Source of the DNA: a virus
Length of the DNA stretch: 34,691 nt
Reading direction: 5' to 3' (one strand)
Virus record (IMG/VR): IMGVR_UViG_3300033153_003943
Coordinates: 1-34,691 of that record
The notes beneath the pieces are model-generated. The model saw only the letters and a program-made list of their open reading frames with translations. It was not told the origin of the DNA and did not search any database. Of this stretch, positions 331 through 34,627 are shown in pieces (positions within the stretch are counted from its first letter, which is position 1; every line of letters begins with the position of its first letter). The position numbers and the translations under genes were made by a program.

Positions 331-653
331 TTAAGATGAGTAGTAATGGTAAGTCAGTACAGTTTGTTGATGACTACGGCAACTTGTATATTACTAGTAA
401 GTCTTTTTTGGTTACTTTTTTGTATGGTAGTGGTGGGGGTGCTCCTTTGTTGTTGACTCGTTTGCCTAATCGTGTTGCTCCTGGTCGTTTTAAGATTAGT
501 CCTTTGTGGGATGTTGCTAGTGGTGAGAAGGTTGATATGGTTGAGCCTCCTGGTTTCGAGTCTGGTGTTCGTCTTGGGGATGATGCTTTGAGTGCTAAGG
601 TTGTTGTTAATTCTGAGGATAAGAAGATGTATGGTAAGAGGTTGGTTTTATAA
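321..653 (+). CDS. Hypothetical protein upstream of terminase (110 aa)
   Basis: Unrecognised 110-residue protein. The ATG at 321 overlaps the end of the previous gene, and a GGAG-type ribosome site (about 309-312) lies just before it; ATG 336 is an alternative start. The stop TAA shares its last A with the ATG of the terminase gene (TAATG), so the two are translationally coupled. The middle carries a glycine-rich run (GSGGGAP) and a proline-rich part. By position it could be a small terminase subunit or a packaging accessory protein, but no domain supports that; treat as unknown. Confidence 0.6.
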   Translation: MAVVKMSSNGKSVQFVDDYGNLYITSKSFLVTFLYGSGGGAPLLLTRLPNRVAPGRFKISPLWDVASGEKVDMVEPPGFESGVRLGDDALSAKVVVNSEDKKMYGKRLVL

Positions 654-2254
654 TGGTTTTTGAGGAGATAGTTGTTGATGATGAGTTCATAAAGGATATG
701 GACTATTACCGAGAGATAGAGGAAGGTCATGACCTAGTGCAGGGCTCTAGTTATAACCCTAATTATTTTAGTGAGAAGATGTTGGGTATTAAGCCTTACT
801 CTTGGCAAGTGTATGTTATGGAGTTGTTCCGTCGTTCTATTGATAAGAGGGCTCGCAAGCTCAAGATTGATATGACAGAAATTGATAATTATGAGGGTGG
901 TAAGATTACTATTGATGTTGATGGTAAGGAGTTCGTTATTATTACTAGTCGTCAGATTGGTAAGTCTACTTTGATTGCTATAATGTCTATTTGGGTTACT
1001 ATGTTTAATAAGGTTAAGGGTACTTTGTTTGAGAATACCTCTATTATTATTGTGTCTGCATCGGATGACCAGGCTAAGAAGTTGTTGAGAGAGATTAACC
1101 GTTTGTTACTGGTCGGTGATGGTAAGATGGCATCCTACTTGGACGGGGAAGAGATGGTGTTTGGTAAGAACTACTTCACTAAGTTACTTAGTAAGGATGA
1201 CCCTAACAATACTACTATGATTACTTTTAATAAGCATGAGGATAAGCATGGTGATTATTTACTTAAAGGTAGTTTACATGGTTCCACTATCAAGAGTTAC
1301 CCTCCTACCTCTAAGGTATTGGGGGAGACTGCTTCGGTCATTTGGATTGACGAGGCTGCCTTTACCGATAAAATAACTGATACTTTCGTATTTGATTACT
1401 TGTACCCTGTTGGTAACTCTACTAATGCTATAAGAGGATATACTTCTACTCCTTGGGCTACGAGCGGGTTTTTTTATAAGATGGTTGACCCTGATGGTGT
1501 TTATGATAACGACCATGCCTTAGTGACTTGTTTTACCATAGATGCTATTCGTATTGAGAACATTAACCAGTACGATAATGTTATGAAGATAATTAACACT
1601 TTGAATCAGGATGGTAAGATTAATCAAGTTCAGAGAGCATATTATTGTAGATTCGTAAAAGGAGAAAAGAGTTATTTCAATCCCGAGAAAGTTACTAATT
1701 GTTTCGAGAACGAAGAAATCATGCTTGATAGGTTTGGTGGTTCTTGTGATTTAGGGGTTGACTTTGGTGGTCAGACTACAAGCAAGACAGTGCTTACTAT
1801 CAGTTACTTGGATGACCATGATGTTATACATCGTATATATCATAAGACTTATGGTGTTGGTAAGGATGATAGTATAATTTCTGATATCGAGGAGTTAATG
1901 ACTCGTTTCAAGATAGAAAGGATTGTTCCTGATGATTGTCCTCAGGGTGATTACTTGATTAGGGATATGAAGGATAAGGGTTGGAATGTTCAACCTATGA
2001 ATTTCCGAACAGATAAGATAAAGAAGTATGGTGCTTTTCGTAGTAAGCTCAACAGAGAGGAGATTTATACTTATCCTGATGAGGACTTAAAAACAGAGAT
2101 GTACTCTTTAGAGTTTATTGAGGGTGTTCGTAATACTATGATTCGTCATGCTCCTGGTTATGGGGATGACTTGATTGATAGTTTCTTACTATCGTGTTAT
2201 TTTTTCTTGAATGATACTGTTGGAGGTAATTATTATGACATGGATGATTACTGA
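653..2254 (+). CDS. terL: Terminase large subunit (packaging ATPase and nuclease)
   Basis: Motor that pumps viral DNA into the prohead and cuts it. The 533-residue length is normal for TerL. An adenine-binding region (KPYSWQVYVM, about residues 48-57) is followed by a Walker A-like SRQIGKST near 98-105, a Walker B with catalytic acid VIWIDEAAF near 228-236, and a coupling motif YTSTPW near 263. The C-terminal RNase H-like nuclease has its first acid in DLGVDFGG (about 366-373), a second acidic patch IVPDDCPQGDY (about 424-434), and a last one GDDLIDS near 503-509. It is the first large late gene, directly downstream of two small genes and upstream of the portal, the usual head-packaging order. 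Codons are unusually T/G-ending compared with the genes from 2.7 kb onward. Confidence 0.96.
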   Translation: MVFEEIVVDDEFIKDMDYYREIEEGHDLVQGSSYNPNYFSEKMLGIKPYSWQVYVMELFRRSIDKRARKLKIDMTEIDNYEGGKITIDVDGKEFVIITSRQIGKSTLIAIMSIWVTMFNKVKGTLFENTSIIIVSASDDQAKKLLREINRLLLVGDGKMASYLDGEEMVFGKNYFTKLLSKDDPNNTTMITFNKHEDKHGDYLLKGSLHGSTIKSYPPTSKVLGETASVIWIDEAAFTDKITDTFVFDYLYPVGNSTNAIRGYTSTPWATSGFFYKMVDPDGVYDNDHALVTCFTIDAIRIENINQYDNVMKIINTLNQDGKINQVQRAYYCRFVKGEKSYFNPEKVTNCFENEEIMLDRFGGSCDLGVDFGGQTTSKTVLTISYLDDHDVIHRIYHKTYGVGKDDSIISDIEELMTRFKIERIVPDDCPQGDYLIRDMKDKGWNVQPMNFRTDKIKKYGAFRSKLNREEIYTYPDEDLKTEMYSLEFIEGVRNTMIRHAPGYGDDLIDSFLLSCYFFLNDTVGGNYYDMDDY

Positions 2255-4724: not shown

Positions 4725-4940
4725 ATGAATATTGAAGATTTGAAAGAAGAGATAAATTTATCTATGAGTGATGCTTTAACTCAAGGTGAAGGTAGGGCTG
4801 ACACAGCATCCGCTTATTACTTAGAAGCTATAGCTAAGATGATGTATTATAGGATGTTCCACGAACACTTCGTTTATGACGACCCTAGTGTAGTTGAGAT
4901 TCCTCAAAGAGTAAACCCTGAGGAAGATGAGACTTCCTAA
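4725..4940 (+). CDS. Hypothetical protein (71 aa)
   Basis: Small acidic, mainly helical protein (MNIEDLKEEINLSMSD...). A good ribosome site, AAGGTGA, lies just before the ATG at 4725. It sits between protease and glycosyltransferase, and its last 14 nt overlap the next gene. No family recognised; a head accessory role is possible only by position. Confidence 0.6.
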   Translation: MNIEDLKEEINLSMSDALTQGEGRADTASAYYLEAIAKMMYYRMFHEHFVYDDPSVVEIPQRVNPEEDETS

Positions 4941-5625
4941 AGTACTAGTATTCTCACCAACATACGAAGGTAAAGAATATTGCAGGGAAGAGTTCATAGA
5001 GAACATTAATAAACTTAATTATCCAAACCATGATTTTATTATGATTGATAACTCAGCAACTATTGATTATTATAATAAGTTGAAAGAGGTAGGTGTTCCT
5101 GTTGTAAGAGTACCTAGAGGTAATAACTCTAGGGATGCTTTGGCAGCAGCACAGAACTACGCACGAAGAAAAGCTATAGAAGAAGGTTACGATTACGTGC
5201 TTTCTGTCGAGAGCGATTTATTCCCACCAAAAGACTGTATACAAAAACTAATGGGTCATTTCAAACCTGTGGTTGGTGCTTTGTATATGATTGGTGGTAT
5301 AGGAAAAATTCCTAAACACCCTTGTGTTTTCCTACCAAAAAGTGATGGTAGTAACGGTACGAGGTTAATAACTAAACAAGAACACGAAAAATTAAAATTA
5401 GAAGGAGGAATTTTTAGAGTCCACGGTATGGGCGTAGGAACTACTCTTATAGACGTATCAGTACTAAAGAAACATGTTTTTTGGTGCGATAATCGTTTTG
5501 AAAACAAACACAGCGACGTATATTTTTATATGGATTTGTGGAACAAAAAGATTCCTGTATTCGTAGATTACGATATGGAAATTAGACATGAAAATTCCGA
5601 TTGGAAAAATGTCGAAGATAGGTGA
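4927..5625 (+). CDS. GT-A fold glycosyltransferase (GT2-like) in head module
   Basis: Predicted to transfer a sugar from a nucleotide-sugar donor. The N-terminus KVLVFSPTYEGKEYCREEF followed by FIMIDNSAT matches the first strands of GT-A enzymes. VESDLFPP (about residues 94-101) is the DxD-like metal site. RVHGMGVGTTLIDVSVL is the acceptor-side strand/loop seen in these enzymes, and a late histidine (IRHENSDW) may complete the metal site. It is 232 aa, with no membrane segment. GAGGAAG is the ribosome site. Its location between capsid protease and scaffold suggests that the acceptor is a virion protein, or that it is a morphogenesis-timed enzyme; this is inference. Confidence 0.75.
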   Translation: MRLPKVLVFSPTYEGKEYCREEFIENINKLNYPNHDFIMIDNSATIDYYNKLKEVGVPVVRVPRGNNSRDALAAAQNYARRKAIEEGYDYVLSVESDLFPPKDCIQKLMGHFKPVVGALYMIGGIGKIPKHPCVFLPKSDGSNGTRLITKQEHEKLKLEGGIFRVHGMGVGTTLIDVSVLKKHVFWCDNRFENKHSDVYFYMDLWNKKIPVFVDYDMEIRHENSDWKNVEDR

Positions 5626-22427: not shown

Positions 22428-22814
22428 ACTCATATAAGCTACAAATTTTTCTGCTGTTAATCTTCTACTTAATCTATGTTTTAAGTATTCTGATGCCATT
22501 AAATTAAATAAGGTTGCACAAGCATGGTCTTCGTCATCAATATTATGATACCATTGCATAAAATGTCTCATAGCACTACTCTTGAATCTTACTAGTTCTT
22601 CTTCGCTGTTTGCTTTCTCCCAGTTTCTTAACCCATACTTCTCTTTACCTTTAGTCATGTGTGTAGCAAACCTAGTTAGTAGTTGGTCTTCGTATGGTAT
22701 TCCTTTAGGGAATAATAATGTGAAGTCTGGTTTACCCTCGGTAGTGTCTCTTATCATACCAGAGGCATATTCTGCTCTCTTACCACTGTCCTTAATTACA
22801 TATTTTTTCTTCAT
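22401..22814 (-). CDS. MazZ/DUF5664-like dATP/dGTP diphosphohydrolase
   Basis: All-alpha nucleotide pyrophosphohydrolase of the MazG superfamily, expected to convert a purine deoxynucleoside triphosphate to the monophosphate. Family markers in order: GMIRDTTEGKPDFTLLFPKG, then HMTKGKEKYGLRNWEKA, then SAMRHFMQWYHNIDDEDHACATLFN with the metal-binding acids. In some phages such an enzyme (MazZ) supplies dGMP for the 2-aminoadenine (Z) pathway together with PurZ and a special PolA; no PurZ is in this window. The 137-residue length is normal. It is the last gene of the leftward operon, coupled by ATGA. Confidence 0.8.
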   Translation of the reverse strand: MKKKYVIKDSGKRAEYASGMIRDTTEGKPDFTLLFPKGIPYEDQLLTRFATHMTKGKEKYGLRNWEKANSEEELVRFKSSAMRHFMQWYHNIDDEDHACATLFNLMASEYLKHRLSRRLTAEKFVAYMSKENKRRGK

Positions 22815-23392
22815 TTTGTTTCCTTCTTAAATATCATCATGTTCTTCCACAAATAACTATAAGCTGGAAGTATCTTTTTACTTAACTCTAATCTTAACTT
22901 ATCAGTTACTTCTTTATCGTAAGAGTATTTTCTTTCTTTGAATAAGTCTATCCAGTAACTCTGTGGTTGACAGTTAAAGTGACTGTATCCTTTCTCATTA
23001 CTAGCTGTTATTAATATGTTGTCCGAGCACATAGTTAGGTTTTTAACAAACACTTTAGCATACTTTTCTTCTAAGTGTTCTGCTACCTCTATACTTACTA
23101 CCAAGTCATCCTTATCACTTATAGTTAAGGATTCTCTTAGGTCAAATTTGTAACAAGATATTCCTCTTTCTAGGCATGCTTTTACTCCTTCATCAGAGCC
23201 TTCGAAGCCTATGTATGGGCAGTTGAATCCTCTGCTTAGTACTCCGTTTCCACATCCCATGTCTGTTACGCGAAAGGGTTTGAAGTGTTTGTATATTGTT
23301 TCTCCTAGTATTTTGTAGGTTGTTTCTTTCCATCCCATTCTTTTGTTTCCATAGTATTCTTTTCCGTAGTAATCGTTTAGTTTGTATTTCAT
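22811..23392 (-). CDS. Class I SAM-dependent methyltransferase (193 aa)
   Basis: SAM-binding motif I is VTDMGCGNGVLSRGF, preceded by TTYKILGETIYKHFKP. Then FEGSDEGVKACLERG carries the second-strand acid, and VVSIEVAEHLEEK is the motif IV region. There is no DPPY/NPPY signature of DNA amino-methyltransferases, so a small molecule, glycan or protein substrate is likelier. The start at 23392 is chosen since GGAGG lies 6 nt upstream and the ATG overlaps the glycosyltransferase stop (ATGA); an ATG five codons upstream exists. Pairing with the glycosyltransferase suggests glycan methylation (inference). Confidence 0.75.
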   Translation of the reverse strand: MKYKLNDYYGKEYYGNKRMGWKETTYKILGETIYKHFKPFRVTDMGCGNGVLSRGFNCPYIGFEGSDEGVKACLERGISCYKFDLRESLTISDKDDLVVSIEVAEHLEEKYAKVFVKNLTMCSDNILITASNEKGYSHFNCQPQSYWIDLFKERKYSYDKEVTDKLRLELSKKILPAYSYLWKNMMIFKKETK

Positions 23393-23979
23393 TTGTGTCC
23401 TCCCCATTCAAACATTGTCATTGGTTTAATACTTATACCTTTACTCCATTTAACGTATTGTGTTATTAACTGGTCTCTTTTTATACCGCTTCTTTCGAAG
23501 TACTCCCAGCTCTTTTCATTCCATAGTTTACTTACTGGGTGGTTTGCTCTTATTATACATCCGTTACAGAATAATCCGTAGTTTACAGGGAAACCTACTA
23601 ATTTATAAGAATACATTAGTTTTTGTAATATTGACCTGTCTACCATTCCTTCTACTGCTCTTGCTTCATCGTATAAGCATTTTCTTGTTGGGTGTGGTTG
23701 TTGTCCTATAGCTAATCCTTTTAATTCTTCTACTAAGAATTGGGGGGTTTTTATTAGTGTTCCGTGTGCGTCTATGTATATAGTGTAGTCTGTTTGAGGG
23801 AATAATAAGTGTGAGTGGAACTTATAATATCTGTTGTGCTTGTCTGCTTTCCTTAACTCCCATCCATTAGCTTCTATGTTCATGTTGTCTGTGAAGCATA
23901 CGTATCTTACTTCTTTGTCAGTAATTACTTGTTTTAGGTCATCGTAGTTGTTTGTTATTACAGTATACACTACAATCAT
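23389..23979 (-). CDS. DUF616-like glycosyltransferase (196 aa)
   Basis: Looks like the TOD1/DUF616 type of GT-A glycosyltransferase: MIVVYTVITNNYDDLKQV at the start, VRYVCFTDN, RYYKFHSHLLFPQTDYTIYID with the acid, then the diagnostic GQQPHPTRKCLYDEA and a late YGLFCNGCIIRANHP. The donor and acceptor are unknown; such genes in viruses often modify surface glycans of the virion or host. It lies between two methyltransferases and overlaps both by 4 nt, so the three probably act together. Confidence 0.75.
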   Translation of the reverse strand: MIVVYTVITNNYDDLKQVITDKEVRYVCFTDNMNIEANGWELRKADKHNRYYKFHSHLLFPQTDYTIYIDAHGTLIKTPQFLVEELKGLAIGQQPHPTRKCLYDEARAVEGMVDRSILQKLMYSYKLVGFPVNYGLFCNGCIIRANHPVSKLWNEKSWEYFERSGIKRDQLITQYVKWSKGISIKPMTMFEWGGHK

Positions 23980-24395
23980 TTTAAAGCCTCAAGTATCACT
24001 ACAAGTTCTATTCCTACTCTTCCCATTCTTACTATCTTATATTTATAATCACCGTAAGACTGGTAATCATCGTTGATTAAAGCGTTAACCATTTCTTCAT
24101 TCCAGTAACTCAGGTGGTCTGGGTAGAAAGCGTAAGGTGTTGAAGCGTGAGGTACTCTTATGATGAATTGACATCCTTTTTTTAGTACTCTGTGTACTTC
24201 GCTCATTACGAAGTATATTTCTTCTCCTCTTTCTATGTGTTCCATGAAGTGACTAGTGTATACTTCTTCCAGGCTGTTGTCTCCGTATGGTATCCCTCTT
24301 TTTACGTCTCTAACGATTTCTTGTCCCCAGTCTCTTAAGTCCATTCCTATGTATCCTTCTTTTTTCTTGTCTGCACATCCTAAATCTAATTTCAT
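23976..24395 (-). CDS. Small SAM-dependent methyltransferase (139 aa)
   Basis: Compact Methyltransf_11-like protein: motif I at the very N-terminus (MKLDLGCADKKKEGYIGMD), SLEEVYTSHFMEHIERGEE (motif IV region), MSEVHRVLKKGCQFIIRVPH (motifs V-VI). The first residues of a typical family member appear to be missing, but homologous short forms occur in glycan clusters. There is no DNA methyltransferase catalytic motif. It is coupled by ATGA overlap at both ends. Confidence 0.75.
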   Translation of the reverse strand: MKLDLGCADKKKEGYIGMDLRDWGQEIVRDVKRGIPYGDNSLEEVYTSHFMEHIERGEEIYFVMSEVHRVLKKGCQFIIRVPHASTPYAFYPDHLSYWNEEMVNALINDDYQSYGDYKYKIVRMGRVGIELVVILEALK

Positions 24396-25373: not shown

Positions 25374-25901
25374 TTATTTACTTTCATTATAATTTTCTAA
25401 TAATTTTAATACTATTTCATTTTCTTTTTCTAATCTTACTTTGTAAACTTCTTCTATATCATTATACAGTCCTAAACTTATTTGTTTATGGTCTAACATT
25501 ATAAAAGCTCTCCATTTTTTACGTTGACTATGCCATGCTACTCCTTTATACCCTGAAGAATTATTTTTATTTAATCCTCTATTAAAATTATTTATTTGTC
25601 TATTAACAATACGTAAATTAGACCTAGTATTATTTGATTTATCTCTATTAATGTGGTCTACTTCTTTATCTGAGTTACTTTCATTTATATTTAATAAAAA
25701 ATTATGTAGTTTAATTTTTGTTTTCCAGTTTATTACATATCCATTTGTTTCTTTAGACCAGTAATGATATTTTACTTTATCATAATCTGATTTAGAAATA
25801 CATCCTATGCTTTTAAATCCTTCACTACATTTTATTTCAATAATATCTTCATCTGGATATTTTAAAAAAGTATTTATTTTTCTATTATTTTGCTTCTCCA
25901 T
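25374..25901 (-). CDS. HNH homing-type endonuclease with AP2-like DNA-binding domain
   Basis: Free-standing mobile nuclease. The HNH core is in KIKLHNFLLNINES then KEVDHINRDKSNNTRSNLR (about residues 70-107); the C-terminus SSGYKGVAWHSQRKKWRAF is an AP2-like DNA-binding unit, the normal pairing in phage HNH genes. The ATG at 25901 is chosen because GAGGTGAT lies 6 nt before it. The gene overlaps the end of polA by 17 nt and uses plain AT-rich codons unlike polA's, as expected of a recently inserted gene. Confidence 0.85.
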   Translation of the reverse strand: MEKQNNRKINTFLKYPDEDIIEIKCSEGFKSIGCISKSDYDKVKYHYWSKETNGYVINWKTKIKLHNFLLNINESNSDKEVDHINRDKSNNTRSNLRIVNRQINNFNRGLNKNNSSGYKGVAWHSQRKKWRAFIMLDHKQISLGLYNDIEEVYKVRLEKENEIVLKLLENYNESK

Positions 25902-27792
25902 AATTATCACCTCTCTCAATTTCAGCTACTAAAGGAACAACAAACTTATTACCAACATCTTCAAATGCTTTCTTAACAAGAATTTCAGCCTCTTTTAAAT
26001 ACTGCTCCTTTACAACATAAATATTTTCGTCATGTACTGTCATTATTTGTTTTAAATCCCAGGCTTTATAAATGTTTCTTTTATAAACATTAATACTTGC
26101 TGCTCTAATCATGTCAGCTGCGAATCCTTGAATCTTAAAATTGAATCCTTGTCTTAAATCTCTATTACTATAATGTCCAAAGGTGTTCTTCTCGAAGTGT
26201 CTGTATCTTCCTGCTAAGTTACGAACGAACCCATTCTTCTTAATCTCTTTATGACTTACGTCTATAGCTTCCTTAAGCTTAGGCATACCTTCAAAGTAAT
26301 CATCTACTATCTTCTGTGCTTCATCTTCTGTTATACCAAAGTCTTTAGAGAAACCATAAGCTCCTTTACCAAAGGCTAATCCGAAGGTTATAGTTTTAGC
26401 CTTACCTCTCTCGTTACTAAACTTTTCTTTCCACACCTTGTGGTCTTTATGTTCTTCGCTTAAACATTCTTCTGGTATACCTAAGTTATAAAATTTATTA
26501 GCGATAGCTAGATGCATATCGTAACCATTATGTAATGATTTGATTAGTGTTGGGTCTTTGCTTTGTTGTGCCATAACACATATCTCTTGACTCTTATAGT
26601 CTGCACTGAACATCTTATATCCTTTAGGTGCTCTGAATATACTACGAACATTAACATCTACTTTTTTATTACAAGACTCACACATACCTTCTTTGACTTT
26701 AGGACTACCACAAGAGTAACATTTAGGTTTAGGGAGTTGTTGTAGGTTTGGTTTGGAGCAACTTAGTCTTCCTGTTCTTGCTCCAGTATCATTAAAAGAT
26801 GGTCTTACTTTACCATCTCCTTGTATCTGTCCAGGTAAAGGGTTAATAAAGCCTGCTAGTAATTTGCTTACTATTTTGTATCTTATTAGTAGGTTAACAA
26901 ATGGATGGTCTTTGTTGTCTTGTAAGGTCTTCTTACCTACACTAGGGTTACCTGTGTCTGTCTTCTCTATTATTTCTATTCCTTGTTCTCCGAATACTTT
27001 AATCAACTGGTGACTACTATTGAAGTTAATGGAGGGTATCATTATAACGTTATTGTCTAAGGTGAATTGCATTTCGTATGGTGCTTTAAGATTATCACAC
27101 ATCTGAACTATAAGGTCTTCTTCTGCTTTCTTAAGAGCTTTACTCTGAAAGTTCATTAAGTTCTTGTCTACCAATACTCCTTCAATAGCCATCTCGAATA
27201 AACATAATTGGTAAGGCATCTCTATTTTAAACATTAAGTATTCTAATTTCTTGTTATATATTTGTGGTTCGAATAGTTGGTATAAGTCGTAGGTGTATGA
27301 CGCGTCGTCTAAACCATACTCATAGAAATCCTTATTATAATGGTTCTGACCTACTTCCTTAAAGGTAGTTACTTCGACGTTTAGTAGTTTACTAGCTAGA
27401 CTCTTAAGTGCTTTCTCTTGGTTCTCATCTATTAGGTGTGCGGCTACTGCTGTGTCAAAGTACTTTATTCCTCTAACATCCACACCATGCTTGTATAGTA
27501 CTCTGGCATCAAACACCCAGTTGTGGCATATCTGAGCCTTAACCCTAGAAAAGAAATCTTTTAAGTATGAAGAAACAACTGATATGTCTAATGCTTTAGC
27601 ACTATTATAGTTTATGGAGGAATCAATGACAATGTAGATAACTTTGTTACCATCACATATTGACATACCAGTCATTTCTAATGAGTATTGTTCTAAACCT
27701 GTGGTCTCTGTGTCCCACGATATTAATGTAGTATTTAGTGTTTCCAGTTCTTTTAGTAGTTGTTGTTCATCATTAACTACTACTCTTTTCAT
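25885..27792 (-). CDS. Family A DNA polymerase with 3'-5' exonuclease and inserted zinc ribbon
   Basis: Replicative polymerase. Exo domain: ExoI WDTETTG (Asp27, Glu29), ExoII ICHNWVFDARV, ExoIII YGLDDASYTYD (near 155-166), so proofreading is intact. Polymerase: GRLSCSKPNLQQLP, motif A SADYKSQEICVMA (Asp398; the usual SQIELR is changed), motif B RGKAKTITFGLAFG (Arg about 460; Phe where Tyr is usual), motif C TVHDENIYVV (587-589). There is no 5'-3' exonuclease; 635 aa is normal for such forms. Between NLQQLP and RSIFRAP, where cellular PolA has a short loop, residues 358-374 form CYSC...CESC, a zinc-ribbon insertion. Family A polymerases are bacterial-type and uncommon in archaeal viruses. Confidence 0.93.
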   Translation of the reverse strand: MKRVVVNDEQQLLKELETLNTTLISWDTETTGLEQYSLEMTGMSICDGNKVIYIVIDSSINYNSAKALDISVVSSYLKDFFSRVKAQICHNWVFDARVLYKHGVDVRGIKYFDTAVAAHLIDENQEKALKSLASKLLNVEVTTFKEVGQNHYNKDFYEYGLDDASYTYDLYQLFEPQIYNKKLEYLMFKIEMPYQLCLFEMAIEGVLVDKNLMNFQSKALKKAEEDLIVQMCDNLKAPYEMQFTLDNNVIMIPSINFNSSHQLIKVFGEQGIEIIEKTDTGNPSVGKKTLQDNKDHPFVNLLIRYKIVSKLLAGFINPLPGQIQGDGKVRPSFNDTGARTGRLSCSKPNLQQLPKPKCYSCGSPKVKEGMCESCNKKVDVNVRSIFRAPKGYKMFSADYKSQEICVMAQQSKDPTLIKSLHNGYDMHLAIANKFYNLGIPEECLSEEHKDHKVWKEKFSNERGKAKTITFGLAFGKGAYGFSKDFGITEDEAQKIVDDYFEGMPKLKEAIDVSHKEIKKNGFVRNLAGRYRHFEKNTFGHYSNRDLRQGFNFKIQGFAADMIRAASINVYKRNIYKAWDLKQIMTVHDENIYVVKEQYLKEAEILVKKAFEDVGNKFVVPLVAEIERGDNYGEAK

Positions 27793-27995
27793 TCTGGTTT
27801 CTCATATATAACGGTTACTACTTCCATTATTTGATACATATTACCTAACTTGTCTACAAATATACCTGCGTCCGGGTCACATACTTTATGGAACTCTTTT
27901 TCATCGTCCATTACTACGTGGTTTCCGTGCATGAATGACGCTCTGTTTATTTTTATGTATGTAAATTCTACTTTTTCTTCTTTTCTTTTCTTCAT
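27789..27995 (-). CDS. Hypothetical protein (68 aa)
   Basis: Small basic-then-beta protein (KVEFTYIKINRASFMHG ... AGIFVDKLGNMYQIMEVVTVIYEKPE). It joins polA by ATGA overlap and overlaps the upstream GIY-YIG gene by 4 nt. No family recognised; a polymerase accessory is conceivable by coupling only. Confidence 0.6.
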   Translation of the reverse strand: MKKRKEEKVEFTYIKINRASFMHGNHVVMDDEKEFHKVCDPDAGIFVDKLGNMYQIMEVVTVIYEKPE

Positions 27996-28390
27996 CTTTT
28001 CCTCCTGCTTAATCTACAGTTAATAATTCCATTATATGATTCTTTGTCAAATAGTACATTCATGTCAAATTGTTGTTTGGCTTCGTAGTAACTTACTTCC
28101 CACTTAGTTTTATATGCTCTAATTATAACTCTACTAAAGTATCTCTTACCATACTTATCAATATCTTCTTGTAAGTAAGCTGATGAACCCCAGTAATCTT
28201 TCCAATCACTCTCTTTAATAACTCTTCTTTTCTTCTTCTTACCTTTAAGAGGTTTAAGTGTTCTTCTGCTCCAGAAACTCTTCTTACCTATGTAATACTT
28301 ACCAGTAATATTATTAGTAATAACATACACAAACCCTTCAAATTGGTCTATGTGTGCAGGTAAGTTCTTCCATCTACTTATAACTTCCAT
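27992..28390 (-). CDS. GIY-YIG-type nuclease (phage putative endonuclease)
   Basis: GIY-YIG core: FVYVITNNITGKYYIGKKSF (residues about 20-39), then the conserved ESDWKDYWGSSAYLQEDIDKYG, the catalytic-region arginine in FSRVIIRAY, the Glu in VSYYEAKQQF, and a closing YNGIINCRLSRR. This combination is typical of the phage family related to Seg-type endonucleases. It overlaps the HNH gene upstream by 17 nt. It may be a homing nuclease or a DNA-processing enzyme. Confidence 0.8.
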   Translation of the reverse strand: MEVISRWKNLPAHIDQFEGFVYVITNNITGKYYIGKKSFWSRRTLKPLKGKKKKRRVIKESDWKDYWGSSAYLQEDIDKYGKRYFSRVIIRAYKTKWEVSYYEAKQQFDMNVLFDKESYNGIINCRLSRRKR

Positions 28391-28778
28391 TTCTTTTTCT
28401 ATTTTTAAAATTATAATTTAAACCAAGTCTTTTTGCATGTTGATTATTTTCTGTCCATGTAGCCCACTCTAAATTGGATAAAATATTATTGTGCTTATCT
28501 CCATCTATATGATTAACAGTTTCTTTTTGTCCTTTAATAAAAGCAAATGCTACTAATCTATGAACTTTTAACTTTTTAGATTTGGGAGCATCTCTTAAAT
28601 GAACATATAAGTAACCATATCTATCCTCATGCTGTTTCATTAACCTACCTTTTACAGGTTTCTTTGTTTTCCATTGAGTATTTACTAATCTATTAAGACT
28701 TCTAATCCTACCTAAATTAGATACTTCATAAATACCTTCCCAGCCTATGACTTGTTTAAACTTTTCTATAATTTCCAT
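28374..28778 (-). CDS. HNH homing endonuclease with NUMOD4 domain
   Basis: NUMOD4 at residues ~10-30 (IGWEGIYEVSNLGRIRSL), then the HNH region KVHRLVAFAFIKG...ETVNHIDGDKHNNILSNLEWAT, and a C-terminal stretch with ENNQHAKRLGL. Its 134-residue length is typical. It overlaps the phosphoesterase gene (13 nt) and the GIY-YIG gene (17 nt) without a clear ribosome site of its own. AT-rich, plain codons mark it as a mobile insertion between older genes. Confidence 0.88.
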   Translation of the reverse strand: MEIIEKFKQVIGWEGIYEVSNLGRIRSLNRLVNTQWKTKKPVKGRLMKQHEDRYGYLYVHLRDAPKSKKLKVHRLVAFAFIKGQKETVNHIDGDKHNNILSNLEWATWTENNQHAKRLGLNYNFKNRKRNGSYK

Positions 28779-30106
28779 TTTCTTTTTATTGAGTTTAATA
28801 GCTGTACAGTACCGTTGTTATATAAAACACCGTTTGTATTTGTCCAATTACTGAATCCCCTATTATAGTCTAACCTTAAATGTGTACTAGTGCCAACACC
28901 ATACGTATTTCTTATTTTCATAGCAGAATGTCGATGACCAGTAATACTCTTAGCGTTATCGTGCTCTATACTTCGTGGACTTCCTCTACCACCATTAGCT
29001 CCTAAGTCACCATGATTACCAAGTTCATATCCTAATACTTTGTGTCCTTCGTCTCTTTCTATGAACTCTACTCTGGGATTTAAGGCTCCTACATATCTTA
29101 GTCCAAATTCTAATGGGTTGTATCCTTCTAAGTCTGCTGCGTATAATATAGCCCCTAAATGACTGTTACCTTTGTCTCCTACAAACCTTCCTTCTTTTAA
29201 GTATCTGTGTAAGTGCTCATCGTGGTTACTTGCCACTATGTATGTTTTTCCCCATGTTGACTCAGCGTATTTATTGATAGCTTTAAGAGTGTGTTCTAGT
29301 TCTTTTTCTAAGTTTAGTCCTTGTTCTTTGAATACTTCGTGCTGTCTAATAAAATCATTTTTGTAATGGTGACTTATACTACGTCCGTTGAAAGTATCGT
29401 GTAAGTATAGGTCTACATGTTTCCCTAAGTGTTTTATCTGCTCGAAAGTATTCTTCTCATGTATTGGGTTTGTATCGTAAGGGTGTAAGTCTCCTATGAT
29501 TAAAGAGTTAGCGTTTAAATCTTTATATTTCTTACCGTTTCTGTAAGTTCCTAAGATGTCTGTGAAGTTACCATTCTTTAATGCTTTCACTTGTCGGAAG
29601 TGAAAATAACTATTACTTTGTTTCTCTACTACTACGAATCCCATCTCGTGGTCTTCTTTTGCTATACGTCCAATACGGTTGTCTCTATAGTTAGGTTTAG
29701 TGATTGCTCCTGTGGTCATTATAGCTTTAGGTATAGTATCGTAACTGTTAGCTACGTATTTTAGTACTTGTTTTGTTCCTGCGAATATGAATGATTTGTC
29801 TCCTTGTGCGAAACGTTCAATTCCTGTTAAAGGGTTTATTTGTTGTGGTGTAATATGATGGTTCTTTATTTTTATATTTTTGTTTATGTTGTAGTCTTGT
29901 TCTACTACTGTTCTTATTTGTAGGTCTCTGTGTATTTCTTCTTCTGTTATGCTTTTACCTGCCATCGGTAAGATTATTAGTTCTGCATCGTGGTCTTTGC
30001 AATACTTATCTATGTTGTTTAGTAAGTTTTTGTTATATCCGACTCCTTTTTGTGCTGAAGTCACTACGTATCTTGTTACCATTTTGTTTATTAATTCCTC
30101 TAACAT
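28766..30106 (-). CDS. Calcineurin-like metallophosphoesterase, phage type (446 aa)
   Basis: Two-metal phosphoesterase. Motifs in order: SLIIGDLHPYD (near residue 202), YLHDTFNGRS, IVASNHDEHLH (near 292), LGNHGDLGANGG, and ITGHRHSA (near 386). The ~195-residue N-terminal part (MVTRYVVTSAQKGVGYNKN...) is a separate domain, and the whole arrangement resembles the two-part phosphoesterases of T5 A1 type found in several phages. That resemblance is from memory, not alignment. A DNA or nucleotide processing role in early infection is likely. AGGTGA lies before the ATG; the triple promoter region at 30138-30228 is directly upstream. Confidence 0.78.
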   Translation of the reverse strand: MLEELINKMVTRYVVTSAQKGVGYNKNLLNNIDKYCKDHDAELIILPMAGKSITEEEIHRDLQIRTVVEQDYNINKNIKIKNHHITPQQINPLTGIERFAQGDKSFIFAGTKQVLKYVANSYDTIPKAIMTTGAITKPNYRDNRIGRIAKEDHEMGFVVVEKQSNSYFHFRQVKALKNGNFTDILGTYRNGKKYKDLNANSLIIGDLHPYDTNPIHEKNTFEQIKHLGKHVDLYLHDTFNGRSISHHYKNDFIRQHEVFKEQGLNLEKELEHTLKAINKYAESTWGKTYIVASNHDEHLHRYLKEGRFVGDKGNSHLGAILYAADLEGYNPLEFGLRYVGALNPRVEFIERDEGHKVLGYELGNHGDLGANGGRGSPRSIEHDNAKSITGHRHSAMKIRNTYGVGTSTHLRLDYNRGFSNWTNTNGVLYNNGTVQLLNSIKRKWKL

Positions 30107-30209: not shown

Positions 30210-30228
30210 GTTTATAAATCTTTCGTTT
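30210..30228 (-). promoter_or_regulatory. Distal BRE/TATA promoter
   Basis: The minus strand reads AACGAAAGATTTATAAACT, a BRE/TATA pair covering the stop codon and last codons of the primase gene. The expected start of transcription is near 30188. Together with the two downstream copies this makes three staggered promoters within 90 bp. Confidence 0.65.
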
Positions 30229-31114
30229 TTTGTTGTTCTGTTACTCCCAAATCATCCAGTAAATTACGAATATAACCTATTCCAGGCTTATAAGGTCTAT
30301 TGTATTGTTGGTCTATCTTGTTCTTAATCTCCCAAGTAGCTAATCTCTTACCTCCACTATATTTATACCAGTCAACAAGGAAGGCTGTCAACTCCTCCTT
30401 AGTATCATATTGTCCTTTAAGGACGTGTATTAAGACCCACAGGCTACGTTCTCTACCATCCCCTACCTCTCTTATCTTTATAGTGTTTAGTAGTAATTTG
30501 ACCTCTTTACTGTTGGCTAACTCCTTAGTGTTCCAAACTGCTTGATTTGCTATACTAATCTTCTTTCTTCTTTGGTATTCATCCCATACTGGTTGAGGAA
30601 CCTTACCTTTATAAGGATACTCCTTATCTTTAGACACTAGCTTCTTACGATTACCAGTCTTCTCATTGACACCATACTCCATACGTATAAGGTGAGGACT
30701 ACATAACTGCATGTCAGGTCTAGGTAAATCTTTAGTGAAGAAAGACATGAAACTTCTTTTTAGTAATGCTATGTCTGTTGCTTCTTTAACGTTAACTATA
30801 CAGTGTAAGTGGTAGCTTTTACCCCCTGAATACCATTTACTCCATTTAATGTTGTTTTCTGTTAGTCTTCGTGCTATAATGTCTACTAGTCTCTTGTTTT
30901 CTTTTAAATCGTCAAAGTCGTACTCGAATACTATTTCTTCGTCTAGTACCATTCTGTGGTTGTATTCTTTTCGAGGTTCAAATTCTTTGCTTAGGAATAA
31001 TACTCTGTCTGACCATGTGTGTTTTAAAGTAGGTCTATAAGCTAACAGAATGTTCTTCTGATAGTTAGTATAGTACTTCTTCAGTAGTGGTCTGACTCTG
31101 TATTCCTTTCCCAT
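30212..31114 (-). CDS. Archaeo-eukaryotic primase (PriS-like, 300 aa)
   Basis: Primase that makes the starter oligonucleotide for replication. Catalytic motif I FEYDFDD (Asp66, Asp68), motif II SGGKSYHLH (about 96-104) and motif III LIRMEYGVNEKTG (about 142-155) follow the order of archaeal small primase subunits. A C-terminal helical part (ERSLWVLIHVLKGQYDTKEELTAFLVDWYKYS) resembles a PriCT-type domain. There is no fused helicase; the AAA+ protein at 34627 may serve. GGAGA precedes the ATG. Host primase acts as a two-subunit complex; this one may act alone. Confidence 0.85.
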   Translation of the reverse strand: MGKEYRVRPLLKKYYTNYQKNILLAYRPTLKHTWSDRVLFLSKEFEPRKEYNHRMVLDEEIVFEYDFDDLKENKRLVDIIARRLTENNIKWSKWYSGGKSYHLHCIVNVKEATDIALLKRSFMSFFTKDLPRPDMQLCSPHLIRMEYGVNEKTGNRKKLVSKDKEYPYKGKVPQPVWDEYQRRKKISIANQAVWNTKELANSKEVKLLLNTIKIREVGDGRERSLWVLIHVLKGQYDTKEELTAFLVDWYKYSGGKRLATWEIKNKIDQQYNRPYKPGIGYIRNLLDDLGVTEQQKTKDL

Positions 31115-31124
31115 TGTTCTCTCC

Positions 31125-31232
31125 TTAAAAAATCCAACTAAATGCCCATATACCTAGTTTAATTGTTAATCCAAAAACTATTAGCATAAACATTGCTGCT
31201 AGTATGTAAGCTGGTAGGTCTTCTATTTTCAT
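31125..31232 (-). CDS. Tiny single-span membrane protein (35 aa)
   Basis: A short frame MKIEDLPAYILAAMFMLIV... with one hydrophobic span of about 20 residues and a short aromatic tail (WAFSWIF). It joins the upstream gene by ATGA and leaves a GGAGA ribosome site for the primase. One of two tiny membrane proteins in this region. Confidence 0.55.
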   Translation of the reverse strand: MKIEDLPAYILAAMFMLIVFGLTIKLGIWAFSWIF

Positions 31233-31465
31233 TTTATTACCTCGTGTTTTACAACAGGAGATTTAACCTCTTCCTTACCTGCTTCAAAAGTAGCCTCTAG
31301 TCTGTTCTGAACGTCTAAGTTTTGTTGTAATACTTTCTCGAAGGGTAGGTTTAGGTCTGCTGCTTGATTCATACACATTCCAAAGAATGCTCCTCCTCCT
31401 CCGTAACCAGCCTTTACTTTCATGAAGGCTTTTGTTTGTTCCTCGTTTAATTCATATTTTTCCAT
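31229..31465 (-). CDS. Hypothetical protein (78 aa)
   Basis: Unrecognised acidic/helical protein MEKYELNEEQTKAFMKVKAGYGGGGAFF..., with a glycine patch (GYGGGGAFFGM) and a helical C-terminal half (QNRLEATFEAGKEEV). It is coupled to the tiny membrane protein that follows. No function assigned. Confidence 0.55.
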   Translation of the reverse strand: MEKYELNEEQTKAFMKVKAGYGGGGAFFGMCMNQAADLNLPFEKVLQQNLDVQNRLEATFEAGKEEVKSPVVKHEVIK

Positions 31466-31466
31466 T

Positions 31467-31568
31467 TTATGCCTCTAATATTTTTAGTACAAATACTACT
31501 CCCCAAACAATTATGTTTATTGAAAATAATATCCAAAAAGTTAATACAAGTCTATTAAATTTTTCCAT
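31467..31568 (-). CDS. Tiny single-span membrane protein (33 aa)
   Basis: A frame MEKFNRLVLTFWILFSINII... of 33 codons, mostly one membrane segment (VLTFWILFSINIIVWGVVFVL-type). AGAGG precedes the ATG and the next gene (31465) begins right after the stop. Perhaps an early membrane effector; unknown. Confidence 0.5.
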   Translation of the reverse strand: MEKFNRLVLTFWILFSINIIVWGVVFVLKILEA

Positions 31569-31569
31569 T

Positions 31570-31707
31570 TTATAATAACCTCTTTAGGCTGTTTAAAGCT
31601 CCGTCAATAGATTTTTGAGAAGAAAAAAACATCTCTTGCATGTGATTAAATAAATTCCATTTATCACTATCTTCTAGCAGGTTAAACTCTTCTTTAGTTA
31701 ATTTCAT
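31570..31707 (-). CDS. Tiny helical protein (45 aa)
   Basis: A frame MKLTKEEFNLLEDSDKWNLF... of 45 codons, charged and helical, ending in SLKRLL. It overlaps the upstream gene by 14 nt and is followed by the tiny membrane protein. No family. Confidence 0.5.
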   Translation of the reverse strand: MKLTKEEFNLLEDSDKWNLFNHMQEMFFSSQKSIDGALNSLKRLL

Positions 31708-31912
31708 TTTTCAACTCTTTTAATATATTTAAATAAGTTATTGCTTCTCCTTTAGTTTCAAAATCTAACGGTTCATCATAATTATAATAAGAATACTCTA
31801 AAGGAATCCAACCAAACCATTTCTTTTGTTTAATAACCCAACTAGTATGAGTATAGGGTTGATACTCAGAGTAAATTATCCTACTTGTTTTCTTAATTAT
31901 TTTATATTTCAT
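31694..31912 (-). CDS. Hypothetical protein (72 aa)
   Basis: Unrecognised basic, aromatic-rich protein (IIYSEYQPYTHTSWVIKQKKWFGWIPLEYSYYNYD). The sequence AGGTGTGAAGAATG at its start is shared with two neighbouring starts (32050 and 32187), a repeated leader motif in this operon. Confidence 0.6.
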   Translation of the reverse strand: MKYKIIKKTSRIIYSEYQPYTHTSWVIKQKKWFGWIPLEYSYYNYDEPLDFETKGEAITYLNILKELKNEIN

Positions 31913-31921
31913 TCTTCACAC

Positions 31922-32050
31922 CTATTCTTCTTCGCAAGAACACTCGTCATTATCTTGCCATTCATATTCAACTAATGTTCCACAATTAATACATTCATAA
32001 CACTGCTTACCTATGAAGTGTTCTTCTCCTCTACTTTCCGGACTACTCAT
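31922..32050 (-). CDS. Tiny zinc-ribbon-like protein (42 aa)
   Basis: MSSPESRGEEHFIGKQCYEC... contains CYECINC and, later, ECSCEEE, five cysteines in 42 residues, plausible zinc-binding. AGGTGTGAATAATG is the ribosome-site context. It begins on the last base of the next zinc-ribbon gene (TAATG). Confidence 0.6.
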   Translation of the reverse strand: MSSPESRGEEHFIGKQCYECINCGTLVEYEWQDNDECSCEEE

Positions 32051-32187
32051 TATTCACACCTATCAGGTATTAATATGATGTCTTCGCCACATTCATAACA
32101 TTCTGCTTCTGTATTAAGAAATCGTGGTTGTGATTTAAAAGATATTTTATTCTTACAATGAGGACACGTCATAACATATTCTTTCAT
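32050..32187 (-). CDS. Tiny zinc-ribbon protein (45 aa)
   Basis: MTCPHCKNKISFKSQ ... AECYECGEDIILIP has CPHC and CYEC pairs about 20 residues apart, a classic zinc ribbon. The ATG overlaps the nuclease stop (ATGA), with AGGTGTGAAG upstream. Likely a regulatory or protein-binding early gene. Confidence 0.7.
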   Translation of the reverse strand: MKEYVMTCPHCKNKISFKSQPRFLNTEAECYECGEDIILIPDRCE

Positions 32188-32888
32188 TCTTCACACCTGT
32201 TCTTAGTATCTAACCTATAACTAATAAGCTCCTGTCTCAAAACCTTATCAACAGGATACTTAATAACAACATACTTATCATCCTTAAGCCACACTAACTG
32301 TAACTCCTTAATAATAACACCTTTAGTCTTCTCAATGATATAACTATACATTAACAACTGTAAGTAATAAAGATTAATCTTACTATTATATAAATGCTTT
32401 ACTGGAGGAGCTAAACCATAGTCACCTTCTTCGTATGGTTTACTATTCATCTTAGCGTTGGTTTTCCAATCTACCAGTGTTACTGTTCCATCATCGTTGT
32501 GAGCTACCAAGTCTATGGTTCCTGCTATCATTATCTCTTCATCACATACTCTTAACTCACTATCAACCTTATTTGTATGTTCATCTAAATAATCTATAGC
32601 TCTTTTAGTCTTCTCTTCCATACTGGTTAATTTACTTTTATCATTTATAAAGTCTTCTATTTCGTTATGAACAAGAGTACCATAATCAGCCCTCTCCTTC
32701 CAATCCTTCAACCAATACCTTACTCCTTTCTTCTGAGCCTTAGCCCAAGCATAGTTTGCTAGCTTACGGGCTAGTCCTTTAGCATCGAAAGGTTTGAACA
32801 TGCTACCTACAAACTGTGTTACACTTAGAGCTTTCTCTCCATTAATGTGATATTCATGTTTTTTTTCATCAAATTTTAGTATTACCAT
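32184..32888 (-). CDS. PD-(D/E)XK nuclease, RecB/Cas4-like (234 aa)
   Basis: RecB-family exonuclease fold with the full motif set: GTLVHNEIEDF (His74), MIAGTIDLVAH (Asp126), TLVDWKTNAK (Asp140, Lys142) and LYYLQLLMYSY (Gln177-x3-Tyr181). It lacks the cysteine cluster of Cas4. Likely DNA end-processing or recombination exonuclease during replication. The N-terminus LKFDEKKHEYHINGEKALSVTQFV is that of phage RecB-like exonucleases. Coupled to a zinc-ribbon gene downstream. Its codon style changes from A/C-ending to T/G-ending and back within the gene. Confidence 0.85.
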   Translation of the reverse strand: MVILKFDEKKHEYHINGEKALSVTQFVGSMFKPFDAKGLARKLANYAWAKAQKKGVRYWLKDWKERADYGTLVHNEIEDFINDKSKLTSMEEKTKRAIDYLDEHTNKVDSELRVCDEEIMIAGTIDLVAHNDDGTVTLVDWKTNAKMNSKPYEEGDYGLAPPVKHLYNSKINLYYLQLLMYSYIIEKTKGVIIKELQLVWLKDDKYVVIKYPVDKVLRQELISYRLDTKNRCEE

Positions 32889-32889
32889 T

Positions 32890-33099
32890 TTACCATAGTT
32901 CTCCTAAAGGATTAAGTTTTATTTTTGTTTTAATTCTTTCTAATCTCTTATTCATAGCTTTAAGTGTGTACCTATGTCCTACTCCATATTCTTTTGCAGT
33001 AAAAGTTATATTTATAGTTGCAGGCATAGGAGCACCTTCATCTACAATAACAAAACCTTTTGTGTTTGTATAATTAATTGCTGTGTTTGTACCTACCAA
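32890..33099 (-). CDS. Hypothetical protein with TTG start (69 aa)
   Basis: Unrecognised. The frame opens at a TTG (33099) overlapping the previous stop, with GGAG about 9 nt before it. It has a beta-rich N-terminal half (AINYTNTKGFVIVDEGAPMPATINITFTAKEY) and a basic helix (YTLKAMNKRLERIKTKIKL). This is the only continuous frame in this space and it has an AGGAG just before the next gene. Confidence 0.5.
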   Translation of the reverse strand: MVGTNTAINYTNTKGFVIVDEGAPMPATINITFTAKEYGVGHRYTLKAMNKRLERIKTKIKLNPLGELW

Positions 33100-33230
33100 T
33101 TTGCATACTCCAAAGGATTTTTTTCTTCCTTTTTTAAAGGGAAATTTATTCCAGCATTAGACAACCTAGACAAATATCCTTTATAAAATTTCATTAATTC
33201 CTCATAAGTAATAGTACTACCTCCTACCAT
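33093..33230 (-). CDS. Tiny hypothetical protein (45 aa)
   Basis: A 45-codon frame MVGGSTITYEELMKFYKGYL... with a perfect GGAGGT ribosome site 6 nt before the ATG, the best in this region. It overlaps the AAA+ gene upstream by 7 nt and the next gene by 7 nt. No family recognised. Confidence 0.6.
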   Translation of the reverse strand: MVGGSTITYEELMKFYKGYLSRLSNAGINFPLKKEEKNPLEYANW

Positions 33231-34627
33231 CTTGTTACCTCCTTAGAATGAACAACATCCGAATAACAACTACACATAACATTACGGTTAGCAAACAAAG
33301 ACTCATCCTTAACCTTACGCAAATAAGTAACCTTATGAGCAATAGATTCCTTACCACTACCATTAGAGTTCTTACCCCTAGCTAACAAATAATTAATAGC
33401 AAAGTCCACATTATAACTCTTACCATAAACACTAGAAGGAATACCTAACTTGTTCATAAGAACAATGAAGTGTTCAGGAAACTTAAGCATATCATCATAA
33501 TCCTTAATAGCATTACGAACTACACCAAACCACATAATATACTCCTCCTCTGTATCAGAGTAAACGTTCAATCCTTTAAGTATCCAAGCTAAATTGTTTC
33601 TCCATCTTTCAGGATACTTAGTAAGGTCAGGAACAACAAACCTTTTCTGCTCGTTATTAAGTTGCTCTATGTAATAGAATGTACTACTTGCTATGTCTTT
33701 ATAGAAAGAGAAATTGTCCTTTATAAAGGCTTTAACATCAACTGTTGTTATCTCCTCAAAAGATTCATCATACCTACCATGCAATCTAAGAGGAAGGTAT
33801 CTGTCTTTAGCATTATCATCAGTCTTGTTATCGAAGAATTTAGAAGTGTTAGCGTAAGTAGAAATGTCGTTGAAGAATAGACTTAGGGATAGCTTAGATA
33901 AGTCTATTATTTCTTTAACTCCTCTACTCCTCTTGAACGTGCTTGGTTTGAAGTCTCCCGTATCTAGTAGGAACTGTTGTATTACATCCCATTCTGATTT
34001 ACGGATACTGCTTACTTCGTTAATAACGAGGTGATTGAGATAAGTCATGTACTCCAACTTAGCTACTGTAGGGTTAGTAACACTACCACAACCGCCTATA
34101 ATGTTGTCTAGTATAACTATCATACTATCTTTTCCGAATCCGGGGGGTGTACATATACGAACGTTAGCTCTATAAATTCTTTGTATTAAAGTGATTATTG
34201 TGTTTAGTATTTGGTGTCTTTTGTTAGTGTGACTTGATGATGATAGGGTATCTACTAGTTGTCGAAAGCTCATCTTTCTTTCTGGTGATATACGTGCAGG
34301 AACTGGTTTGTTTATTAGCCTGTATGCTTGTCCTCTGTGAGCTACGTCTTCCAATCCTTCTTCGTCTTCGGGACTGGGAAATATAGGTAGTAGTTCTTTT
34401 AGCATTACTTCTTTTCCTTTATCATCTATGCTACTTAGTAGGTATTTCGTTTTGTCTTTTTCTAATGTGTATCCCCAGAAGTCGTAGTTGTCGTTTGTTT
34501 CTCCTCCTGGAAAGGTTACTTTGTTGATGTGTATTTTGTCACTTGTTACGTTTGAGCTTGTTAGTAGTCCTTTGTATTGTTGTTTTTTGTATTCTTCTAC
34601 TAGGCTGTAGTGTAGTTTAGTTACCAT
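33224..34627 (-). CDS. AAA+/SF3-like ATPase, candidate replicative helicase (467 aa)
   Basis: P-loop ATPase. Walker A is TPPGFGKDS (residues 160-168, a degenerate GxGK[D]S form), Walker B HLVINE (199-204), a sensor-1-like Asn in LSLFFNDIS (253), and a candidate arginine finger in KDRYLPLRL (276). The ~150-residue N-terminal part and ~180-residue C-terminal part flank the ATPase. No MCM or DnaB signature is clear. With the primase and polymerase genes downstream, a helicase or loader role is likely. GGAG precedes the ATG. The N-terminal third uses A/C-ending codons, the C-terminal third T/G-ending. Confidence 0.7.
   Translation of the reverse strand: MVTKLHYSLVEEYKKQQYKGLLTSSNVTSDKIHINKVTFPGGETNDNYDFWGYTLEKDKTKYLLSSIDDKGKEVMLKELLPIFPSPEDEEGLEDVAHRGQAYRLINKPVPARISPERKMSFRQLVDTLSSSSHTNKRHQILNTIITLIQRIYRANVRICTPPGFGKDSMIVILDNIIGGCGSVTNPTVAKLEYMTYLNHLVINEVSSIRKSEWDVIQQFLLDTGDFKPSTFKRSRGVKEIIDLSKLSLSLFFNDISTYANTSKFFDNKTDDNAKDRYLPLRLHGRYDESFEEITTVDVKAFIKDNFSFYKDIASSTFYYIEQLNNEQKRFVVPDLTKYPERWRNNLAWILKGLNVYSDTEEEYIMWFGVVRNAIKDYDDMLKFPEHFIVLMNKLGIPSSVYGKSYNVDFAINYLLARGKNSNGSGKESIAHKVTYLRKVKDESLFANRNVMCSCYSDVVHSKEVTRW

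Follow-up and report, generated by a model that had tools for sequence, protein, structure and literature searches.

The family A DNA polymerase of an uncultivated tailed phage carries a lineage-specific insertion just ahead of motif A, which, judging from sequence comparison and predicted structures, is probably a zinc ribbon; the insertion itself is real. The window, that is, the whole stretch of DNA that was analyzed, is a virus record of 34,691 bases (IMG/VR IMGVR_UViG_3300033153_003943). The four cysteines of the insertion, C358, C361, C371, and C374, are spaced as C-x2-C-x9-C-x2-C in KPKCYSCGSPKVKEGMCESCNKKVDVNV, between NLQQLP and R383, which opens the segment RSIFRAP. The initial annotation had pointed to a four-cysteine element at 26650–26740. 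Translation of the minus strand from 25885 to 27792 places the cysteines at 26671–26721, corresponding to residues 358–374, CYSCGSPKVKEGMCESC, which form the predicted ribbon core on the basis of this translation, the spacing found in ribosomal protein bL32, and the hairpin present in both structural models.

The Phage and Its Polymerase

The plus strand of the window encodes the terminase, portal, major head protein, and tail fibre within the first 22 kb, and the minus strand carries a block of replication-type genes from 25 to 34 kb. The large subunit of the terminase (653–2254, plus strand) gave no tblastn match among 50,697 phage records, and the polymerase is only about 29% identical to the best phage records listed, so the lineage, as far as sequence comparison goes, is poorly sampled. 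The phage is a divergent tailed phage, and the product of polA is presumably its replicase.

The polA gene (25885..27792, minus strand) encodes a family A DNA polymerase of 635 amino acids with a 3'-5' exonuclease, as identified from Pfam, PHROG, and the aligned catalytic acids. The Pfam matches are DNA_pol_A (PF00476, 2.6e-73) and exo1 (PF01612, 2.8e-16), the PHROG match is PHROG 17 (5e-113), and the Pfam domain search gave no 5' nuclease domain. The exonuclease residues D27, E29, D95, Y159, and D163 (DxE, D, and YxxxD) are invariant in the alignment, as are the polymerase acids D398, D588, and E589, which include the aspartates of motifs A and C. Within the phage clade of this polymerase, these five exonuclease residues and D398, E403, R462, K466, F470, D588, and E589 are all kept.

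The AlphaFold2 model, built from a 30-row alignment, has a mean pLDDT of 91.3 and a Klenow-like fold, with a Foldseek E-value of 1e-39 to 8oo6 and a VIA-align Z of 38.9 to 6vdd. It overlays Klenow-type structures at Z 36–39 over about 560 residues and 2.2–2.6 Å. A viral fold search with the full model returned phage polymerases only and was uninformative on the insert. Apart from the insert, the sequence is that of an ordinary proofreading Pol I-type enzyme with complete catalytic sites, and the protein is most likely a working proofreading polymerase. The large fragment of bacterial Pol I (Klenow and Bst) has in common with it the whole fold, the catalytic residues of both domains, and the order of the motifs; it differs in a nine-residue loop without cysteine from NLQNIP to R..F, in the motif A segment SQIELR, and in the tyrosine of motif B.

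Motifs A and B had been described in the initial annotation as altered, which is correct for individual residues and overstated for the motifs as a whole. In motif A (SADYKSQEICVMA, residues 396–408, 26569..26607, minus strand, located by alignment), the catalytic D398 and E403 are retained and correspond to D705 and E710 of Klenow, and the oddities are K400 and C405. The segment ADYKSQE resembles ADYSGQE of its own clade and ADYKGQE of the crAss-like phage cr111_1, and the less usual point is C405, where the nearest relatives have arginine. Motif B retains R462, K466, and F470 and has F474 in place of the tyrosine found in Klenow (Y766) and in the relative L041, a single conservative change. 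Because the catalytic and other key residues are kept and the unusual points are few, the changes in both motifs are only mild at the sequence level.

Insertion in the Loop before Motif A

The loop between P354 and R383 comprises 28 residues (355–382; 26647..26730, minus strand), compared with 5–10 residues (median 9) in 27 other full-length phage and bacterial rows of the alignment. The suggestion that the element is an insertion relative to the short loop of ordinary PolA is therefore borne out. The six nearest polymerases, all from IMG/VR (L041, L024, L025, L026, L027, and L043), are 34–39% identical and have loops of 9–10 residues. When the nearest relatives are aligned to the polymerase of the window, a gap of 18–19 residues opens at the loop, and the cysteine ribbon coincides exactly with the inserted residues. 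In the maximum-likelihood tree, the polymerase and these six form one clade with 100/100 support. Since the other six members all have the 9–10 residue loop, the simplest reading of the sequences is that about 18 residues were gained once, on the branch of the window itself.

The residues on both sides of the insertion are conserved. K355 (26728..26730, minus strand) directly follows NLQQLP and is invariant across the phage clade. R383 (26644..26646, minus strand) lies 15 residues ahead of the catalytic D398 and is nearly invariant across all rows. The six clade members resemble the polymerase of the window in K355, in R383, and in the motif A pattern D[YF]..QE, and they differ from it in the short loop without a ribbon.

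Several trivial origins of the insertion were considered. In shuffled versions of the polymerase, two CxxC pairs separated by 2–20 residues arose in 126 of 200,000 trials (6e-4); this low frequency, together with the coincidence of the cysteines with the insertion, rules out a chance arrangement. The looser pattern CxxC..[CH]..[CH] is absent from every other open frame longer than 60 codons in the window. The reading frame continues through the insert and the flanks on both sides are conserved, which makes a frameshift or an assembly artefact unlikely. The insert is too small for an intein or an unspliced intron, although homing endonuclease genes adjoin polA.

Evidence for a Zinc Ribbon

Identical cysteine spacing is found in ribosomal protein bL32, whose zinc ribbon aligns in register in phmmer, with an E-value of 0.25. 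This value is below significance; the agreement in spacing and predicted hairpin likely reflects a common fold type, and no kinship is claimed. The double zinc ribbon profiles of Pfam all stay under their cut-offs; DZR_2 matches the insert at 7e-4 and 19.8 bits, which is below the curated cut-off of 27.

In the full model, the insert has a pLDDT of 71–77 and forms a β-hairpin, V366-K367/M370-C371, between the two cysteine pairs. When a 37-residue fragment containing the insert was modelled by itself, this hairpin formed again, with a pLDDT of 86–87 in the ribbon. In Foldseek, the fragment matched for the most part zinc ribbons and knuckles, in ribosomal proteins, MetRS, HscB, ZRANB2, TFS4, and RanBP2; the best E-value is 0.34, and none is individually significant. 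The fragment superposes on the MetRS knuckle at 1.5 Å over about 25 columns in Foldseek, and its VIA-align Z is 2.4 at best. The sequence and both models thus show a pair of CxxC knuckles with a short β-hairpin linking them. The structure prediction that had been proposed as a check on the ribbon yielded a ribbon-like hairpin, and the assignment made from the look of the sequence is supported by both the cysteine spacing and the predicted fold.

Taken together, the spacing and the models strongly suggest that the four cysteines hold one zinc ion and form a rigid β-hairpin. Zinc binding as such is considered very likely, a grade that expresses judgement and is not a computed value. The same four cysteines could suit an iron-sulfur cluster, for which the cysteine-rich iron-sulfur site of B-family polymerases is a precedent, or might form redox disulfides. 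However, two CxxC pairs nine residues apart with a short hairpin between them are the standard layout of a zinc ribbon, and the element is zinc-site-like in both sequence and fold, which makes an iron-sulfur or redox role highly improbable.

Rarity among Polymerases

To date, the insert is carried by one sequence only. Scans of 2.9 million viral contigs of IMG/VR were carried out with the pattern Asn-[Leu/Phe]-Gln-[Asn/Lys/Gln/His]-x-Pro followed by 1–11 residues, CxxC, 2–12 residues, and CxxC, covering all codon combinations for Asn-Leu, and a scan with the exact spacing was added. All in-frame matches were translated, and no polymerase other than that of the window has the ribbon behind NLQ[NKQH]xP in these scans, whose coverage may omit the closest kin of the window. 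tblastn searches of the 50,697 phage records with the loop of the window and with a made-up ribbon consensus gave, among the matches listed, shortened loops of about 48–65 codons against up to 75. No other PolA with the ribbon appeared in the single-protein search, none of the PolAs from bacterial genomes with a readable loop has it, and the plasmid records gave only PolAs of about 30% identity. A common insertion of phage PolAs is ruled out, as no second case was found with the IMG/VR patterns, by tblastn of phage records, or among the bacterial PolAs. The initial annotation had named wide occurrence in known PolA families as a finding that would refute its reading; such occurrence was looked for, and the insertion was not found in the other families examined.

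Few enzymes have been studied as thoroughly as family A polymerases, and the literature searched yielded no report of a zinc element in their catalytic domain; zinc is named a single time in a survey of bacterial polymerases.

Proposed Role at the Primer End

According to published numbering, the insertion site is that of insertion loop 2 of Pol θ and Pol ν, between motif 2 and motif A, a loop that Pol θ enlarged independently. The hinge of loop 2 in Pol θ is a β-hairpin, and in the Lates calcarifer enzyme its residues K2395 and R2448 touch the end of the primer, and full extension activity depends on them (PMC9841435). When R2448 is lost through a deletion, the Km for dATP rises 13-fold and extension is severely impaired; adding R2448 back restores the enzyme (PMC9841435). 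In human Pol θ, R2254 is a contact with the primer end (PMC9841435, PMC5042397), and loop 2 has been linked to the extension of single-stranded ends and to lesion bypass (PMC5042397, PMC9962433). This work, which places the hinge of the loop on the primer end, agrees with the earlier suggestion that the loop lies close to the primer-template.

Through the same numbering, K355 may be equated with R2254 of human Pol θ and K2395 of the Lates calcarifer enzyme, and R383 with R2448 of the latter. The likeness to Pol θ and Pol ν is one of site, namely the insertion point and the basic hinge residues on both sides, and is taken from published numbering. Compared with the phage loop, that of Pol θ is longer; it is also disordered and has not been described as a zinc binder. 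The exonuclease of Pol θ is inactive, and the two enzymes are not closely related. Because the exonuclease residues of the phage polymerase are intact, it is not classed as theta-type.

On this basis, it is proposed that the zinc ribbon was gained at the tip of the β-hairpin loop that connects motif 2 (TGR..NLQQLP) to motif A, where the hinge residues K355 and R383 would grip the primer end in the manner of the loop 2 hinge of Pol θ. Since K355 and R383 are equated with the Pol θ hinge positions, the ribbon would cap the primer-gripping hairpin. Its basic surface (K357, K365, K367, K376, and K377) would stiffen the hairpin and add a contact to the upstream duplex, with a probable effect on DNA holding and processivity and not on the chemistry of the reaction. 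The proposal as a whole, a proofreading replicase that has gained a zinc ribbon with a hinge grip and a basic cap for holding DNA, is put forward with chances that appear evenly balanced.

The cap need not matter, because Pol θ of Lates calcarifer is little affected by removal of the middle of loop 2 or by mutation of the basic cluster in that loop (PMC9841435). The insert might then be a neutral, metal-stabilized loop that is tolerated and has no role beyond folding. This would be in line with the dispensability of the middle of loop 2 in vitro in that one species, with the variable length of the loop in other phage PolAs, and with the fact that the insert is known from one genome only. The variation in length is exemplified by Thermus phage P74-26, whose loop has about 19 residues and no cysteine in a separate alignment. 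The enzymes of Thermus phages G20c and P74-26 are family A phage polymerases like the one described here, and that of G20c is active in proofreading; they differ in the lack of loop cysteines, and the special motif of G20c lies in the exonuclease domain. However, the four cysteines, the standard spacing, and the basic surface are all present in the insert, and an insert of 18 residues that served no purpose, close to the active site of an enzyme that is probably essential, would be expected to erode or disappear. A neutral loop is accordingly judged unlikely; if the insert does prove neutral, it would still demonstrate that this position, 24 residues ahead of the catalytic aspartate, accommodates a folded module.

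The five lysines on or next to the ribbon may serve either to contact the upstream duplex or to dock a partner. Zinc ribbons often act as docking modules, and the ribbon might mainly bind another replication protein, such as a primase, a helicase, or a single-strand binding protein, while hardly touching DNA. A precedent is the zinc domain of the T7 primase, which binds in the DNA channel of the polymerase at primer hand-off (PMC9841435). The block of replication-type genes at 30212–34627 adjoins polA and includes one protein with a primase-like motif pattern recognized by eye. However, this candidate partner has no database match, and a position of the loop beside the primer end fits DNA contact at least equally well, so that docking as the main function is possible but doubtful. 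The T7 precedent also allows a reading in which the ribbon would be a built-in stand-in for a T7-like primase zinc domain, holding the end of a short primer for hand-off and starting synthesis, as a device for primer acceptance or processivity at the loop 2 site of Pol θ; this seems decidedly improbable.

Under the proposed capping of the hinge hairpin, a folded ribbon at this site would be an ordered counterpart, open to deletion, of the disordered Pol θ loop. It would therefore allow a clean test of how enlargement of the hairpin affects primer holding, mismatch extension, and processivity, and it could point to a transferable module for polymerase engineering.

Genes around polA

The primase-like gene (30212–31114, minus strand) encodes a protein of 300 amino acids with motifs resembling, by eye, those of archaeal-eukaryotic type primases (EYDFDD and YSGGKSYHLHCIV); searches of Pfam, PHROGs, NCBIfam, PDB sequences, and phage records matched nothing to this protein. 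A protein of 467 amino acids (33224–34627, minus strand) contains TPPGFGKDS, a stretch resembling a P-loop, but matched no family, and its sequence suggests that it may be a helicase or another ATPase of the replication block. Near polA, the gene at 28766–30106 (minus strand) has a strong match to PHROG 1745, "DNA transfer protein" (1e-91).

Genes of homing-type endonucleases are clustered around polA on the minus strand: an HNH gene at 25374–25919, a GIY-YIG gene (SegE-like) at 27992–28390, and a NUMOD4-HNH gene at 28374–28778. The first of these overlaps the 3' end of polA, and its first listed start is TTG. Elsewhere in the window, two methyltransferase-like and two glycosyltransferase-like genes are found at 22811–24395 (minus strand) and 4927–5625 (plus strand).
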